A stretch of 24,111 nt of DNA, from positions 1-24,111 of IMG/VR virus record IMGVR_UViG_3300038360_000125; one strand, given 5' to 3'. The stretch comes from a virus. Of this stretch, positions 20,308 through 23,876 are shown in pieces; positions within the stretch are counted from its first letter, which is position 1; every line of letters starts with the position of its first letter. A model generated the notes under the pieces. That model did no database searches, had not been told where the DNA came from, and was given only the letters and a program-made list of their open reading frames with translations. The position numbers were made by a program, and so were the translations under genes.

Positions 20308-20391
20308 GATAACAATAGCGACACATATAATTACGATCGCTATTGTCAACTGCAATAAAAACTTTTCTTCTTTATCTAGTTTGTTATACAT
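20287..20391 (-). CDS. Very small membrane protein (34 aa), last gene of leftward operon
   Basis: Read on the reverse strand, the ATG at 20391 overlaps the stop of the upstream SSB-like gene as TAATG, the classic sign of translational coupling. The peptide starts with a charged segment (MYNKLDKEEKFLLQL) followed by one strongly hydrophobic helix (TIAIVIICVAIVISLFF) and ends in Ala-Arg. This is the normal layout of a small single-span membrane protein. It converges with, and overlaps, the end of the rightward 64-residue membrane protein. It has no independent Shine-Dalgarno, so it is a prediction from coupling and composition only. Confidence 0.5.
   Translation of the reverse strand: MYNKLDKEEKFLLQLTIAIVIICVAIVISLFFAR
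20297..20369. repeat. Nested inverted repeat at the convergent gene junction
   Basis: Outer arms AAGAAAAGT (20297-20305) and ACTTTTCTT (20361-20369) enclose inner arms ACAATAGCGA (20312-20321) and TCGCTATTGT (20337-20346), all perfect. It sits where the late rightward and early leftward units collide, so a bidirectional terminator-like function is likely. The T tracts are interrupted, so strength is uncertain. It also lies within the 34-residue frame. Confidence 0.6.
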
Positions 20392-20795
20392 TAAAATGGT
20401 ATATCGTCGTTAAACTCATCACCCATTACAAATGATGCAATTTCAATAAAATTATCTTTATTGATTTTAATAAGAAATTTACCCGGTGAGTTTACAAGAT
20501 TTTTTTCTGTCATAGCATCTTCGTTATATTCTTTACCTATAAACTCAAGAAATTCTTTTATTTGTTTAATGTGCCATCCGTGTTTATCATGTGATGGTTC
20601 TGAAACATTAAACCATTTCTTAACAGTAAATGCTTTGCCCTTCTTGTCAACAAATCCAAATACTATTAAAATACATGGATTGCCTGTCTTAGATATTATT
20701 TCTTTTACAGAGTTTATTATAAAACTATAAACTCCTTCTTCACATGGTTTTAATAATTCGTGTAGTTCTTCATCGCTATATACTGGTATTTTCAT
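20391..20795 (-). CDS. SSB-like single-stranded DNA-binding protein (DUF669-type) with DDIPF tip
   Basis: A 134-residue protein. The core (about 18-112) has the pattern of the phage ssDNA-binding family that accompanies Sak4-type ATPases: E-G-V-Y-S-F-I-I-N, then a K-K-W-F-N-V-S block, then H-I-K-Q-I-K-E-F-L-E-F-I-G. The last residues, E-F-N-D-D-I-P-F, reproduce the acidic-hydrophobic C-terminal tip of bacterial SSB (DDDIPF), the docking site for many host repair and replication proteins. It should coat ssDNA and feed the neighbouring ATPase in recombination or annealing. Shine-Dalgarno AAGGAG sits 8 bases before ATG. Its stop overlaps the start of the 34-residue gene. The SSB-like role is well supported by tip and neighbour; the fold assignment is from memory. 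Confidence 0.8.
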   Translation of the reverse strand: MKIPVYSDEELHELLKPCEEGVYSFIINSVKEIISKTGNPCILIVFGFVDKKGKAFTVKKWFNVSEPSHDKHGWHIKQIKEFLEFIGKEYNEDAMTEKNLVNSPGKFLIKINKDNFIEIASFVMGDEFNDDIPF

Positions 20796-20814
20796 TTTCG
20801 TTGCTCCTTAGTTG

Positions 20815-21015
20815 TTATATTAAATTATTTAAGTAATGTGGGCGTAAAATATCTTTTAATTTAATGGCAAATTTAGCTTGTGTTAAATCATGGTTCATTA
20901 GTTTTAAATACGTATACAACACACTATGCAAATGACGTAATTCATCTTTTGTTTCAATTTCAATATTTACCCGTGAGAATTTGTCAATATTCCATTCTTC
21001 AATAGTTACTTTCAT
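20815..21015 (-). CDS. Small protein of unknown function between Sak4-like and SSB-like genes
   Basis: A 66-residue protein. The ATG at 21015 is chosen because AAGGAAAAG lies just upstream and the preceding gene stops one base before it. A start 19 codons further upstream would overlap that gene without a good ribosome-binding site. The product begins with beta-like strands (KVTIEEWNIDKFSRVNIEIE), followed by a helix D-E-L-R-H-L-H-S-V-L-Y-T-Y-L-K. It has no known motif, no cysteine pair and no membrane segment. Lying between two ssDNA-handling genes, an accessory recombination role is possible but not shown. Confidence 0.75.
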   Translation of the reverse strand: MKVTIEEWNIDKFSRVNIEIETKDELRHLHSVLYTYLKLMNHDLTQAKFAIKLKDILRPHYLNNLI

Positions 21016-21016
21016 T

Positions 21017-21712
21017 TTACTTTTCCTTAGTTGGTTTCTTAGGTTCTGGTACATCACCAAAATATTCATCAAGTTTATTTAAAATTAATTGTAGATCATT
21101 CGGTATAAATTTATCTTGGAATAAATCCATAGGTGATTTAGCTACGTTATTACCATCATTCTTTGTTAAGAAAACATGCTGTTCATCAACCACTAATGAA
21201 TTCAATACAATCGTAAACATACCCTCTAATGTTATCTTATCATCAAGCATTTTACCAATTGTTTTGCACTTAGTTCTGCCTTCTGCGTCTCTTTCAGAAT
21301 GACTTAGAAAGAAAACATTTAAGTCTGATCTTGTTTTGGCAGCATCATTAATAACTGTCCATGCATGTTTAGCAATGTCTGTGAACTTATCATATCCACG
21401 TTCTGTTGCTCTATGCATAAATTCATTAGCCATAATATATTGAAAGTCATCTATGATTAAGTTTTTAATGTGGGGCTGACTATCAACATATTTAATTATT
21501 TTAGATATGTTCTCTTGTTTATCTGATACATATATGTTTCCTGTTATTTCGCCATCACCCTTGATTACTGTCTTATAGTTTTTCTTCCAACCCCTAAACG
21601 GTAATGGTTTGTCTAGTACATTTATAATAAATGTTTCTTTTGGTTTAAGTGTTCTAATGGCGGTGCTTTTACCGCTGCCACTTTCACCTATTATTAATAT
21701 GGGTGTTCCCAT
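21017..21712 (-). CDS. Sak4-like RecA-fold ATPase (phage recombination)
   Basis: A 231-residue protein. Walker A is G-E-S-G-S-G-K-S-T (9-17), Walker B is N-L-I-I-D-D-F (84-90), and a polar sensor-like strand V-F-F-L-S-H-S-E lies at 133-140. The segment T-L-K-P-K-E-T-F-I-I-N-V-L-D-K-P-L-P-F-R-G-W (21-42) is characteristic of the small phage ATPases grouped with Sak4/AAA_24. These are single-domain RecA-core enzymes that stimulate annealing of SSB-coated DNA. The SSB-like gene two positions downstream fits this partnership. The C terminus is Lys/Pro rich. Ribosome-binding site AGGAGATAAGACA. A generic phage NTP-binding protein of the same fold is the only realistic alternative. Confidence 0.87.
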   Translation of the reverse strand: MGTPILIIGESGSGKSTAIRTLKPKETFIINVLDKPLPFRGWKKNYKTVIKGDGEITGNIYVSDKQENISKIIKYVDSQPHIKNLIIDDFQYIMANEFMHRATERGYDKFTDIAKHAWTVINDAAKTRSDLNVFFLSHSERDAEGRTKCKTIGKMLDDKITLEGMFTIVLNSLVVDEQHVFLTKNDGNNVAKSPMDLFQDKFIPNDLQLILNKLDEYFGDVPEPKKPTKEK

Positions 21713-21723
21713 TGTCTTATCTC

Positions 21724-21963
21724 CTATTTATATTTATCTTCTTCTGTAAAAGTTTCTGTTATACCATTTTTTAAATCATCATATGTTATTTTCTTTGTGA
21801 AAACTTGAGGAATTATAAGTTCTTCTCTTAGGATAATAATACCCTCTGGTGCGTCTATTCCTATTTTGATTTTCGTGTCTTTTATCTTTAAAATAGTAAC
21901 ATAAATATTACCGTTAATTACTAGTGTTTGACGTTCTTTCCTTTCTAATACTAACATTCCCAT
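21724..21963 (-). CDS. csrA: CsrA/RsmA-family RNA-binding translational regulator
   Basis: A 79-residue protein. Residues 3-50 follow the CsrA pattern closely: M-L-V-L-E-R-K-E-R-Q-T-L-V-I-N-G-N-I-Y-V-T-I-L, then K-I-K-I-G-I-D-A-P-E-G-I-I-I-L-R-E-E-L. The two RNA-contacting regions (strand 1, MLVLxR, and strand 5 with Arg before the Glu pair) are kept. CsrA proteins are dimers that bind GGA motifs near ribosome-binding sites to block or help translation. The C-terminal tail of about 28 residues (IPQVFTKKITYDDLKNGITE and on) differs from the short helix-tail of cellular CsrA. The first ATG (MGMLVL) fits the Shine-Dalgarno AAGGAG at 8 bases; the family's usual Met is the third residue. It is in the middle of the early operon. 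Confidence 0.9.
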   Translation of the reverse strand: MGMLVLERKERQTLVINGNIYVTILKIKDTKIKIGIDAPEGIIILREELIIPQVFTKKITYDDLKNGITETFTEEDKYK

Positions 21964-21968
21964 GATAT

Positions 21969-22145
21969 TTACTCCTTACTACACCTACTACATCCTGTTG
22001 TTTGTTGTAAAATTCCTATGCTAATTGCATATCTAATATTTTCAAGTCTAAAGTAATCATCCCAAAGTCTAAACATATCCACCCCCTTTTTGCTTTTCTT
22101 GTCAGATGGATATATTAGGGCTGTCGTTTTGCCTGCTTTACTCAT
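21969..22145 (-). CDS. Small unknown early protein (58 aa), two possible starts
   Basis: The reverse-strand ATG at 22145 directly follows the upstream stop (TAAATG) and has AGGAAAG before it. The product starts MSKAGKTTALIYPSDKKSKK and ends G-C-S-R-C-S-K-E, a short Cys-x-x-Cys that could bind metal. An in-frame ATG at 22076 (residue 24, MFRLWDD) is preceded by a purine-rich AAGGGGGTG, so a 35-residue form may also be made. The final codons AAG-GAG-TAA form the Shine-Dalgarno of the csrA gene. No family was recognised. It is supported by tight packing and ribosome-binding sites rather than homology. Confidence 0.65.
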   Translation of the reverse strand: MSKAGKTTALIYPSDKKSKKGVDMFRLWDDYFRLENIRYAISIGILQQTTGCSRCSKE

Positions 22146-22295
22146 TTAGCTTTCCTGATTATTTTCTGTCGTTCTTTTGTTGCGTAATCTTTTATAATAT
22201 TCATTTCCTGCGTCTCCTATTTTAAATATTTCCTCTATAATTCTATCTGTATATTTATGTTGATTGCTTACTATCTGCTTCTCGTATGATTCCAT
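22146..22295 (-). CDS. Small unknown early protein (49 aa)
   Basis: The reverse-strand ATG at 22295 lies one base past the upstream stop, with GAGGAT as ribosome-binding site inside that gene. The peptide (MESYEKQIVSNQHKYTDRII and on) is highly charged and helical, with E-E-I-F-K-I-G-D-A-G-N-E-Y-Y-K-R-L-R in the middle and a polar end. It has no membrane segment or known motif. Its stop TAA abuts the next ATG. Gene spacing of zero to one base on both sides is the main evidence that it is real. Confidence 0.65.
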   Translation of the reverse strand: MESYEKQIVSNQHKYTDRIIEEIFKIGDAGNEYYKRLRNKRTTENNQES

Positions 22296-22296
22296 C

Positions 22297-22488
22297 TTAC
22301 AATCCTCTTGTCTCGTTCATGTCTCTTGCTCGCTCTCTATTATCAGCATCTATTAAGTCTTGTACGCTTCCTCTGCTGCATTTAGCTCTGTAGAACTTTG
22401 GATTATTGTAATAGTCATCTATTTCGTCTATTTGGCGAGATTGCTGATCTTCATGTAATGCTTTTAATTCTTCATTATGTGTGCTCAT
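22297..22488 (-). CDS. Small charged early protein (63 aa)
   Basis: The reverse-strand ATG is preceded by AAAGGAGTAATAATC, the repeated leader of this operon. The product is very hydrophilic (MSTHNEELKALHEDQQSRQI, then D-E-I-D-D-Y-Y-N-N-P-K-F-Y) and rich in Asp, Glu and Arg, probably helical and soluble. It has one cysteine and no known motif. Such small acidic phage early proteins often bind host proteins, but nothing here points to a target. It sits in the middle of a run of short coupled genes. Confidence 0.7.
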   Translation of the reverse strand: MSTHNEELKALHEDQQSRQIDEIDDYYNNPKFYRAKCSRGSVQDLIDADNRERARDMNETRGL

Positions 22489-22597
22489 GATTATTACTCC
22501 TTTATTCCTTTGTTAACATTAATAGTTGCCCATGTCATAGTTACTATATATAAGGCTAGTAAACTGTATGTAAATATTTCCATGATTATTACTCCTT
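22486..22597 (-). repeat. Repeated Shine-Dalgarno/start leader in the early operon
   Basis: A 17-bp string (AAGGAGTAATAATCATG on the coding strand) is identical at 22486-22502 and 22581-22597, directly before two neighbouring genes. A close variant (AAGGAGTAAATATCATG) precedes csrA at about 21961-21977. Each includes the stop codon of the upstream gene or lies just beside it. Confidence 0.8.
22494..22583 (-). CDS. Tiny membrane peptide (29 aa)
   Basis: Reverse-strand ATG with perfect leader TAAGGAGTAATAATC. The peptide MEIFTYSLLALYIVTMTWAT is one hydrophobic span, followed by a polar tail ending K-E. Its last codons, AAG-GAG-TAA, are the Shine-Dalgarno of the following gene. It is too short for homology, but start signal, stop/SD overlap and clear membrane-helix composition all support expression. 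Confidence 0.6.
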   Translation of the reverse strand: MEIFTYSLLALYIVTMTWATINVNKGIKE

Positions 22598-22735
22598 ACA
22601 CCAGCACAACATTTCAATTTGGCTGCGAAGTATAACTATAACATTTAAGCTTACATTATCAGTGGCATCTGAGTTAGATTCACAAACCTCTTCTAGCTCC
22701 ATTATTTTCTTATCAATCTCTTCCTCAGTTCTCAT
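22589..22735 (-). CDS. First gene of the leftward early operon, small acidic protein (48 aa)
   Basis: The reverse-strand ATG has the Shine-Dalgarno ACAGGAGTG, about 25 bases downstream of the predicted transcription start of the strong leftward promoter. The protein begins with an acidic helix (MRTEEEIDKKIMELEEVCES) and has a second amphipathic helix L-N-V-I-V-I-L-R-S-Q-I-E-M-L, ending C-W-C-K-E. It contains three cysteines, two of them as Cys-Trp-Cys. The last codons AAG-GAG-TAA again serve as ribosome-binding site for the next gene. No family was recognised. Confidence 0.65.
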   Translation of the reverse strand: MRTEEEIDKKIMELEEVCESNSDATDNVSLNVIVILRSQIEMLCWCKE

Positions 22736-22769
22736 GTCTTTCACTCCTGTTTTTAACAATTACAACCAC

Positions 22770-22798
22770 ACTATAGTAAATCCAATTTACTATGTCAA
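22770..22798 (-). promoter_or_regulatory. Strong sigma70-type leftward promoter (PL-like)
   Basis: On the reverse strand TTGACA (22798-22793) is followed after exactly 17 bases by TATAGT (22775-22770): a perfect -35 and a 5/6 -10. It reads into the early operon starting at 22735. The spacer is filled by a palindromic operator. It matches the rightward promoter at 23348-23376 in 27 of 31 positions. Confidence 0.9.
22773..22793. promoter_or_regulatory. Operator dyad inside the leftward promoter
   Basis: TAGTAAAT, CCA, ATTTACTA (22774-22792), extended by one more A-T pair, is a perfect 9-3-9 palindrome spanning the spacer between -35 and -10. A protein bound here would block RNA polymerase. The small HTH protein encoded at 22809-23033 is the obvious candidate. 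Confidence 0.82.
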
Positions 22799-22810
22799 GT
22801 AAAATTTACT
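22798..22810. promoter_or_regulatory. Second dyad next to the leftward promoter
   Basis: AGTAAA, A, TTTACT is a perfect 6-1-6 palindrome beside the -35 box and overlapping the stop codon of the HTH gene. It reuses the AGTAAA half-site of the neighbouring operator at closer spacing, so it may be an auxiliary site or a chance echo. Confidence 0.5.
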
Positions 22811-23033
22811 ACTTTTTTTGTAAAAAATCTAAAACCGTTATTTTTCCTTTAGTTAGAACCTCTATTTTCTTACGGAAATTAATACCCATAAGAAATTCCC
22901 CTCTCTCTACCTTCTTATGTCTCCATACGCTTATGATTGTGCGTGTGCATCCAATTGCTTCACAGAAGCGTGCTACATTACCTGCTGCTCTAATAGCTTC
23001 CTCTAACTTTAAATGTATTTTTGTTCTTCTCAT
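22809..23033 (-). CDS. YdaS/Cro-like helix-turn-helix regulator
   Basis: A 74-residue protein. The ATG at 23033 is chosen over a GTG nine codons upstream because AAAGGAACATAAT lies before it and the upstream gene ends two bases earlier. Residues about 11-40 form the helix-turn-helix: L-E-E-A-I-R-A-A-G, N-V-A-R-F-C-E-A-I-G-C-T-R-T-I-I-S-V-W-R. The rest (GINFRKKIEVLTKGKITVLD) is the typical end of YdaS/Cro-type phage regulators, where the gene ends with K-I-E-x-L-T-x-G-K-I-T-x-x-D. It lies between two nearly identical outward promoters that both carry palindromic spacers and probably represses them. Whether it acts as CI-like maintenance repressor or Cro-like early repressor cannot be told. Confidence 0.82.
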   Translation of the reverse strand: MRRTKIHLKLEEAIRAAGNVARFCEAIGCTRTIISVWRHKKVERGEFLMGINFRKKIEVLTKGKITVLDFLQKK

Positions 23034-23035
23034 TA

Positions 23036-23275
23036 TTATGTTCCTTTTTTTAATTGCCACAGCACGTCAATCCACCATAGATTAAATACAACTTTTTTAT
23101 GACAAGTAAATTCTATCTTTCCAGATGTATTTTTAATATCTTCATATGAAAAAAGATTATATCCTCCTGTTCTTCTAACATCTATTCCAAACCAATCAGT
23201 GTTTTCCGTATTTGGCTTAGCCATACCTCCTTTTTTCATAAAATTAATAGCCTCATTAAATTCAACTAAATTCAT
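23036..23275 (-). CDS. Unknown protein cotranscribed with the HTH regulator
   Basis: A 79-residue protein with ribosome-binding site ATAGGAG, 8 bases from ATG. It starts MNLVEFNEAINFMKKGGMAK, then a D-W-F-G-I-D-V-R-R block and an aromatic C-terminal part (VVFNLWWIDVLWQLKKGT). The last codons include AAAAAAAGGA, the ribosome-binding site of the HTH gene. The N terminus vaguely recalls the F-x-E-A-x-x-x-M-K-x-G start of the DUF2829 family, but the rest does not fit. The function is unknown. Its position as first gene of the regulator operon suggests a role in the switch, immunity or anti-defence. Confidence 0.7.
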   Translation of the reverse strand: MNLVEFNEAINFMKKGGMAKPNTENTDWFGIDVRRTGGYNLFSYEDIKNTSGKIEFTCHKKVVFNLWWIDVLWQLKKGT

Positions 23276-23330
23276 CTAAAAAACTCCTATTTATTATGTA
23301 ATAAACCCCATATCTAATGATGTTTTAAAA

Positions 23331-23359
23331 ATAATAGCAAATAAAAGTTGACATAGCAA
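23331..23359 (-). promoter_or_regulatory. Candidate leftward promoter of the regulator operon (PRM-like)
   Basis: On the reverse strand TTGCTA (23359-23354) and TATTAT (23336-23331) are 17 bases apart. Its -35 lies inside the spacer of the opposing rightward promoter, so the two are back to back and overlapping, and would compete or share control by the same operator. Confidence 0.6.
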
Positions 23360-23376
23360 GTTTAATTTACTATAGT
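23348..23376 (+). promoter_or_regulatory. Strong sigma70-type rightward promoter (PR-like)
   Basis: TTGACA (23348-23353), 17 bases, TATAGT (23371-23376). It is nearly the same sequence as the leftward promoter at 22770-22798. It reads into a short structured leader, tRNA-Thr and the zinc-ribbon gene. Confidence 0.9.
23354..23372. promoter_or_regulatory. Operator-like imperfect dyad inside the rightward promoter
   Basis: TAGCAAG, five bases, TTTACTA has the same 7-5-7 geometry and place (between -35 and -10) as the perfect operator of the leftward promoter (TAGTAAA, five bases, TTTACTA). The left half differs at two positions, which would predict weaker binding. Confidence 0.72.
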
Positions 23377-23483: not shown

Positions 23484-23556
23484 GCCCGTGTAGCTCAATC
23501 GGTAGAGCTATTGTCTTGTAAGCAATGGGTTGTAAGTTCGAATCTTACCGCGGGCT
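23484..23556 (+). tRNA. tRNA-Thr (anticodon UGU)
   Basis: A complete cloverleaf of 73 bases. Acceptor GCCCGTG pairs with CGCGGGC, D stem GCTC/GAGC with loop AATCGGTA, anticodon stem ATTGT/GCAAT with loop CTTGTAA (anticodon TGT, reading ACA), a 5-base variable region, and T stem GTAAG/CTTAC with loop TTCGAAT. The discriminator is T and CCA is not encoded. It would supplement decoding of ACA, a codon used heavily in the threonine-rich fibre and virion genes of this phage. Confidence 0.95.
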
Positions 23557-23575
23557 TATTAAAGGATAGCGGGTT

Positions 23576-23591
23576 AATCTTTAATTGAGGG
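23576..23591 (+). repeat. Leader repeat, copy A (contains Shine-Dalgarno of zinc-ribbon gene)
   Basis: AATCTTTAATTGAGGG, exactly repeated at 23804-23819. In this copy GAGGG is the ribosome-binding site for the ATG at 23599. Confidence 0.8.
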
Positions 23592-23790: not shown

Positions 23791-23803
23791 AAGGCAATAA
23801 GTC

Positions 23804-23876
23804 AATCTTTAATTGAGGGGTCTTTTGTTAATAGTATTTAATGAGTTAAAATAAAAAGGTGGACTCCTCAATTAAA
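23804..23876 (+). repeat. Leader repeat copy B plus inverted copy: 15-bp stem
   Basis: AATCTTTAATTGAGGG recurs at 23804-23819. TTTAATTGAGGGGTC (23808-23822) pairs with GACTCCTCAATTAAA (23862-23876), with a single G-T pair, around a 39-base AT-rich loop. No good start codon follows copy B; TTG at 23826 would give only nine residues. It may be a 3' structure for the zinc-ribbon mRNA or a duplicated leader whose gene was lost. Confidence 0.75.

Follow-up and report, generated by a model that had tools for sequence, protein, structure and literature searches.

A divergent CsrA-family gene in the early recombination operon of a podovirus fragment, with a candidate autoregulatory leader

A small gene for a CsrA-type regulator, placed on the minus strand of a podovirus fragment among recombination genes, raises the question whether the phage directs such a protein to mRNAs of its host, to the genes transcribed together with it, or to its own message. 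The window, by which we mean the whole stretch of DNA that was analysed, corresponds to an entire IMG/VR virus record, 24,111 bases long, and its plus strand encodes tail tubular proteins, internal virion proteins, an endolysin, tail-fibre genes and the large terminase. A 2020 survey reported csrA in 30 of 2517 phages (PMC7366521), a 2021 survey of phage csrA genes included IMG/VR (PMC8450108), and in one phage collection 91 records matched E. coli CsrA. This kind of phage protein is already known, and the gene described here is a new divergent member of it (Table 1).

Table 1. Features of the csrA locus, with positions in the window, strand and basis
Feature	Position	Strand	Basis or remark
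SSB-like protein	20391..20795	(-)	phrog_378, E 9e-7
Small ORF between sak4 and SSB	20815..21015	(-)	no confident family
Sak4-like ssDNA annealing protein	21017..21712	(-)	phrog_2872, E 3.3e-81, 273 bits; relative of HK620 hkaL
Phage csrA	21724..21963	(-)	79 aa; PF02599 (58.1 bits), PHROG CsrA-like, Foldseek to solved CsrA
C-terminal tail IIPQVFTKKITYDDLKNGITETFTEEDKYK and stop codon	21724..21816	(-)	replaces helix after R44-E-E-L; pLDDT about 60
58-aa ORF directly upstream of csrA	21969..22145	(-)	ORF list
csrA Shine-Dalgarno AAGGAG, second candidate CsrA site	21972..21977	(-)	sequence; adjoins and overlaps stop region of upstream ORF
Candidate CsrA site ACAACAGGATGT in csrA leader	21990..22001	(-)	9/12 to RUACARGGAUGU
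49-aa early ORF	22146..22295	(-)	ORF list
63-aa early ORF	22297..22488	(-)	ORF list
First early-operon ORF	22589..22735	(-)	start ATG with AGGAG
Leftward pL-like promoter TTGACA-17-TATAGT and palindrome AGTAAATTGGATTTACT	22770..22798	(-)	11/12 promoter match
HTH regulator, CI/Cro position between promoters	22809..23033	(-)	phrog_409, E 2e-5; phrog_35 repressor, E 1.6e-4
Rightward pR-like promoter, near copy of leftward	23348..23376	(+)	11/12 promoter match

The earlier note had taken the ORF, which occupies exactly the interval given in Table 1, for a CsrA-family regulator and had proposed an HMM search, and this assignment is borne out. The Pfam CsrA profile matches the protein at E 8.5e-16, well over its cut-off (58.1 bits against 27), and the PHROG profile "CsrA-like regulator" matches at E 1.3e-11. 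The cut-offs of the NCBIfam csrA equivalogs NF002469 and TIGR00202 were both missed (52.0 against 73 bits and 51.3 against 70.1 bits, respectively), for which reason we do not call the protein an orthologue of cellular csrA; such scores are what one would expect of a divergent homologue. The nearest PDB chains by sequence are CsrA/RsmA, and a single-chain AlphaFold model, built with 50 phage relatives, has a pLDDT of approximately 95 in the core. When this model was compared with the PDB by Foldseek, the best 15 matches were all CsrA, RsmA or RsmE, mostly with an rmsd of 0.8–1.5 Å over approximately 48 residues, so that the predicted fold is shared with bacterial CsrA/RsmA (E. coli CsrA; 2bti, 1vpz, 2jpp), with central beta strands and with beta1 and beta5 left free for a partner subunit. 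The critical RNA contacts of CsrA are L4 and R44 (PMC7652899), and both are present, R44 being invariant across 50 sequences; of the features on which the earlier assignment hinged, the RNA-contacting arginine is present and the fold is predicted for the single chain. The further invariant or near-invariant residues shared with the bacterial proteins are also retained in the alignment (M1, L2, R6, I14, G33, A36, P37, E46). In this alignment Met1 of CsrA corresponds to the second Met of the ORF, at 21957; with AAGGAG spaced by 8 nt, the first Met is the more likely start of translation. Judged by sequence and model, the ORF is a genuine, divergent CsrA-family gene. Direct relatives of the whole 79-amino acid protein were not found in IMG/VR, phage and plasmid records, and in a tree it sits on a long branch, with few columns informative for its origin.

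The protein departs from bacterial CsrA/RsmA in Glu5, in the absence of the canonical C-terminal helix and in its 30-residue tail. Column frequencies over 49 phage relatives, which have Thr or Ser at position 5, contain no other case of Glu5 (0/49). Following R44-E-E, the segment IIPQVFTKK, which carries a Pro, and the tail stand where a Y-x-x-I-x-x-E-K helix is normally found; Thr/Ser5 and this helix are usual in the family but do not strictly define it. The earlier note had also described the tail as unusual. A long tail of approximately 30 residues past R-E-E-L does replace the usual end, but phage CsrA tails range from none to approximately 75 residues (F116/phi297 type), and are longer in a few, so that a long tail alone does not set the protein apart. 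A resemblance of the tail to that of a related phage (L114; FTKKITYDDLK vs YPKYLTEEDLK) reached p 0.017 as a single comparison and is not significant, because it was the best of about 100 comparisons. On the alignment, what is distinctive in this CsrA is Glu5 together with the lost canonical helix after R44, and these two changes may alter RNA binding. They could be taken to mean that the protein poisons host CsrA by heterodimerising with it or targets other RNAs, and the long branch in the tree would fit such a divergence; since L4, R44, E46, G33, A36 and P37 are all present and the predicted fold is canonical, we consider this quite unlikely.

The csrA gene belongs to a compact early operon on the minus strand (20391–22759), in which the leftward transcript would carry several small ORFs, csrA, the Sak4-like gene, a small ORF and the SSB-like gene. 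The recombination setting named by the earlier note is therefore present, with the Sak4-like gene directly downstream and the SSB-like gene further on. The leftward and rightward promoters pair as a 52-nt inverted repeat with 79% complementarity, and the layout, in which outward-facing, near-identical promoters surround a block of HTH genes, is that of a lambda immunity region. Besides the HTH regulator, the immunity-like region (22770–23376) also holds a 79-aa ORF. The palindrome AGTAAATTGGATTTACT is a possible operator, and the strong leftward promoter of the csrA operon may be under repressor control. This layout suggests a temperate phage, although the fragment contains no integrase. The left operon of HK620 (pL-N-cIII-kil-Sak4-SSB-abc2) follows the same plan, with small ORFs, Sak4 and SSB behind a leftward promoter, but lacks csrA. 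Furthermore, the Shine-Dalgarno sequence (SD) of csrA adjoins the stop codon of the preceding ORF and that of sak4 overlaps the csrA stop codon, which makes translational coupling likely at both genes.

To judge which messages might be bound, the gene leaders were compared with the CsrA SELEX consensus, RUACARGGAUGU (PMC7652899). The earlier note had pointed to the first leader of the operon as close to a CsrA site; this leader (ACAGGAGTG) is a poor candidate, its best match being 6/12, and the leader of csrA itself is far better. Its site ACAACAGGATGT, which falls within the 3'-terminal part of the preceding ORF, is with 9/12 the best match among the 26 gene leaders in the window, in which the other early leaders do not exceed 7/12; by the same measure the E. 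coli csrA leader scores 8/12. The pattern ACA(N)GGATGT (ACA.?GGATGT) occurs a single time in the 24 kb, both strands counted, at the csrA leader. Counted from GGA to GGA, this site lies 20 nt upstream of the csrA SD, within the range of 10–63 nt over which a CsrA dimer can bridge two sites (PMC7652899). In E. coli, four sites in the csrA leader, one of them covering the SD, mediate the repression of CsrA translation by CsrA itself (PMC7652899). The site upstream of csrA thus predicts autoregulation, perhaps coupled to sak4. AGGA or GGAG does precede every early gene, as the earlier note had observed, but this is an ordinary SD, shared by most late genes. Likewise, the "repeated 17-bp leader" turned out to be a 17-nt segment of SD plus start codon, AAGGAGTAATAATCATG, rather than a CsrA hairpin. 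Its three copies (21961–21977, 22486–22502 and 22581–22597) precede early ORFs including csrA and give the impression of duplicated translation-initiation cassettes. A search for RNA families in the vicinity of csrA, among them CsrB-like RNAs, returned only a tRNA-Thr and one chance-level match.

Whether csrA leaders carry such sites in phages generally was assessed with 61 non-redundant phage csrA genes and 291 other SD-led genes from the same loci. Matches of at least 8/12 were found in 27 of the 61 csrA leaders (44%) compared with 51 of the 291 others (18%; p 1.6e-5); none of 300 flank-shuffled consensus patterns equalled this result, and the effect was also present outside the SD. In an independent set the figures were 22/60 (37%) and 55/282 (20%; p 0.0043, matched P 0.0008), with the signal coming from the SD region alone (non-SD P 0.35) and with 12.7% of shuffled patterns equalling the result, which makes it not clearly consensus-specific. 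The replication is weaker and confined to the SD, so that the enrichment was only partly replicated. The genes at +1 and −1 of csrA across phages were not enriched for CsrA sites (P 0.33 and 0.66), and GGA hairpins with stems of at least four pairs in csrA leaders were not significant (P 0.155). Taken together, the leader comparisons support the predicted autoregulation in the present phage and, to a moderate degree, in phages generally, and they do not support control of neighbouring genes. The idea of the earlier note that CsrA times its own operon accordingly divides: it holds as a prediction for csrA itself, and it does not extend to the adjacent genes. A wider form, in which CsrA would repress translation of other early recombination genes such as sak4 and SSB late in infection, could draw on the position directly upstream of sak4, on the stop/SD overlap that permits coupling and on the good site in the csrA leader; with the low scores of the other early leaders and the unenriched neighbours against it, we regard this form as quite unlikely. 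An incomplete literature search found no published report of the autoregulation prediction or of the leader test.

The distribution of csrA bears on whether the gene matters to its carrier. Among 50 phage contigs with a related Sak4, nine carry csrA, all of them among the first 21 tested, which are the closer Sak4 relatives; genomes with Sak4 relatives are mixed (Pasteurellaceae, Pseudomonas, Psychrobacter and metagenome bins). One further csrA contig was found via the terminase, and there csrA is immediately followed by RecT and a RecE-like exonuclease. The closest whole-phage relative (terminase 50%, Sak4 62%) has no csrA match, which indicates that csrA is dispensable in the lineage and could be read as recent acquisition of a passenger without a role in the present phage. 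This reading is very improbable, since csrA recurs in the related phages and since its invariant positions are all intact at 25–50% identity to relatives, which needs long purifying selection. In the 16 csrA-positive phage contigs in which an annealing protein could be detected, the two genes lie within 5 kb in 10 (3.7 expected, p 0.00075) and on the same strand in 15, a closeness that may only reflect csrA being an early gene. F116 and phi297 (RsmM type), VvAW1 and Vibrio phage 219E41.1 likewise have a single small csrA at a comparable early position, in the first three alongside exonuclease, annealing or SSB genes in the early operon; the tails of all four are unrelated to the present one, and the annealing protein families differ. 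PTXU04_00028 is likewise a phage CsrA that has diverged and whose C-terminus is altered, but it follows holin and lysozyme genes and has no consensus-like leader site (best 4/12). Its place in a lysis-gene block means that the recombination context of csrA is not universal.

From sequence and model we read a CsrA family member of the predicted fold, with L4 and R44, encoded in a recombination operon of the lambda pL type; what goes beyond a family member with intact RNA-contact residues we infer. Our preferred reading, to which we assign a probability of roughly 0.55, is that of an autoregulated, early-made and host-directed translational regulator. The protein would be made early in infection from the leftward promoter, probably under repressor control, would dimerise and bind host mRNAs at GGA motifs close to their ribosome binding sites, and would overlay or compete with the host CsrA regulon such that expression of metabolism, motility or defence genes favours phage growth. 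Once enough CsrA is made, it would bind ACAACAGGAUGU and AAGGAG of its own mRNA and halt csrA translation; sak4, being translationally coupled, would perhaps be dampened as well. A benefit exerted through the host is suggested by the smaller plaques seen in 2025 upon knock-down of PTXU04 csrA (PMC11879866) and by the repression of three CRISPR-Cas systems in Serratia by RsmA (PMC8450108), and retuning of the host, as the earlier note had proposed, is plausible. In the literature that we found, an influence on phage growth is reported for a single phage CsrA, and an RNA target is known for none. Mobile-element CsrA proteins that act on or can replace host Rsm are also encoded by plasmids, namely RsmQ of Pseudomonas, which assumes control of host translation on a global scale (PMC9928087), and pMBA19a CsrA of Sinorhizobium; these differ from the present protein in being plasmid-borne and experimentally characterised. 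A narrower proposal has phage CsrA act chiefly as a repressor of host defence mRNAs, of CRISPR-Cas or otherwise, with phage RsmA homologues serving as anti-CRISPRs (PMC8450108), and an early-type promoter is consistent with it; as no direct test of a phage CsrA against CRISPR was met in the literature found, we hold it to be unlikely.

The autoregulated, host-directed regulator remains the reading that we prefer, and were its feedback confirmed, phages would import the Csr feedback circuit together with the protein, and the locus would offer a simple target for studying how phage CsrA competes with host CsrA. Phage CsrA proteins are common; what the present locus adds is a leader with two predicted autoregulatory sites, immediately upstream of a recombination gene. 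In a bolder version, which we think has a slim chance, the Glu5-carrying, helix-less CsrA would have changed RNA specificity or be dominant-negative on host CsrA and, autoregulated via a dedicated site, ACAGGAUGU, would also throttle the coupled Sak4; if true, the ACAGGAUGU circuit would build a translational timer into phage recombination.

Several minor observations were made in other csrA phages and elsewhere in the window. In a related phage (L019, csrA at 781–969) the csrA leader holds GCACAGGATGTGC, in which a GGA triloop is closed by a stem of 5 bp; this reads as a textbook CsrA site and lies 31 nt ahead of the start codon. One phage contig (L246) has two different csrA genes approximately 1 kb apart (1076–1240 and 2179–2415) with quite different tails, and a csrA-carrying Sak4 phage encodes an RtcB-type RNA ligase approximately 1.1 kb downstream of csrA (L289:11180-12391). 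In the window, the tRNA-Thr (TGT) gene at 23484–23556 lies a short way downstream of the rightward early promoter and may for this reason be the first gene of the rightward transcript. Moreover, ATCTTTAATTGAGGG repeats (23573–23591, 23801–23819 and 23862–23876), one of them an inverted copy, flank a 63-aa CxxC-containing ORF and are possible regulatory or terminator elements.
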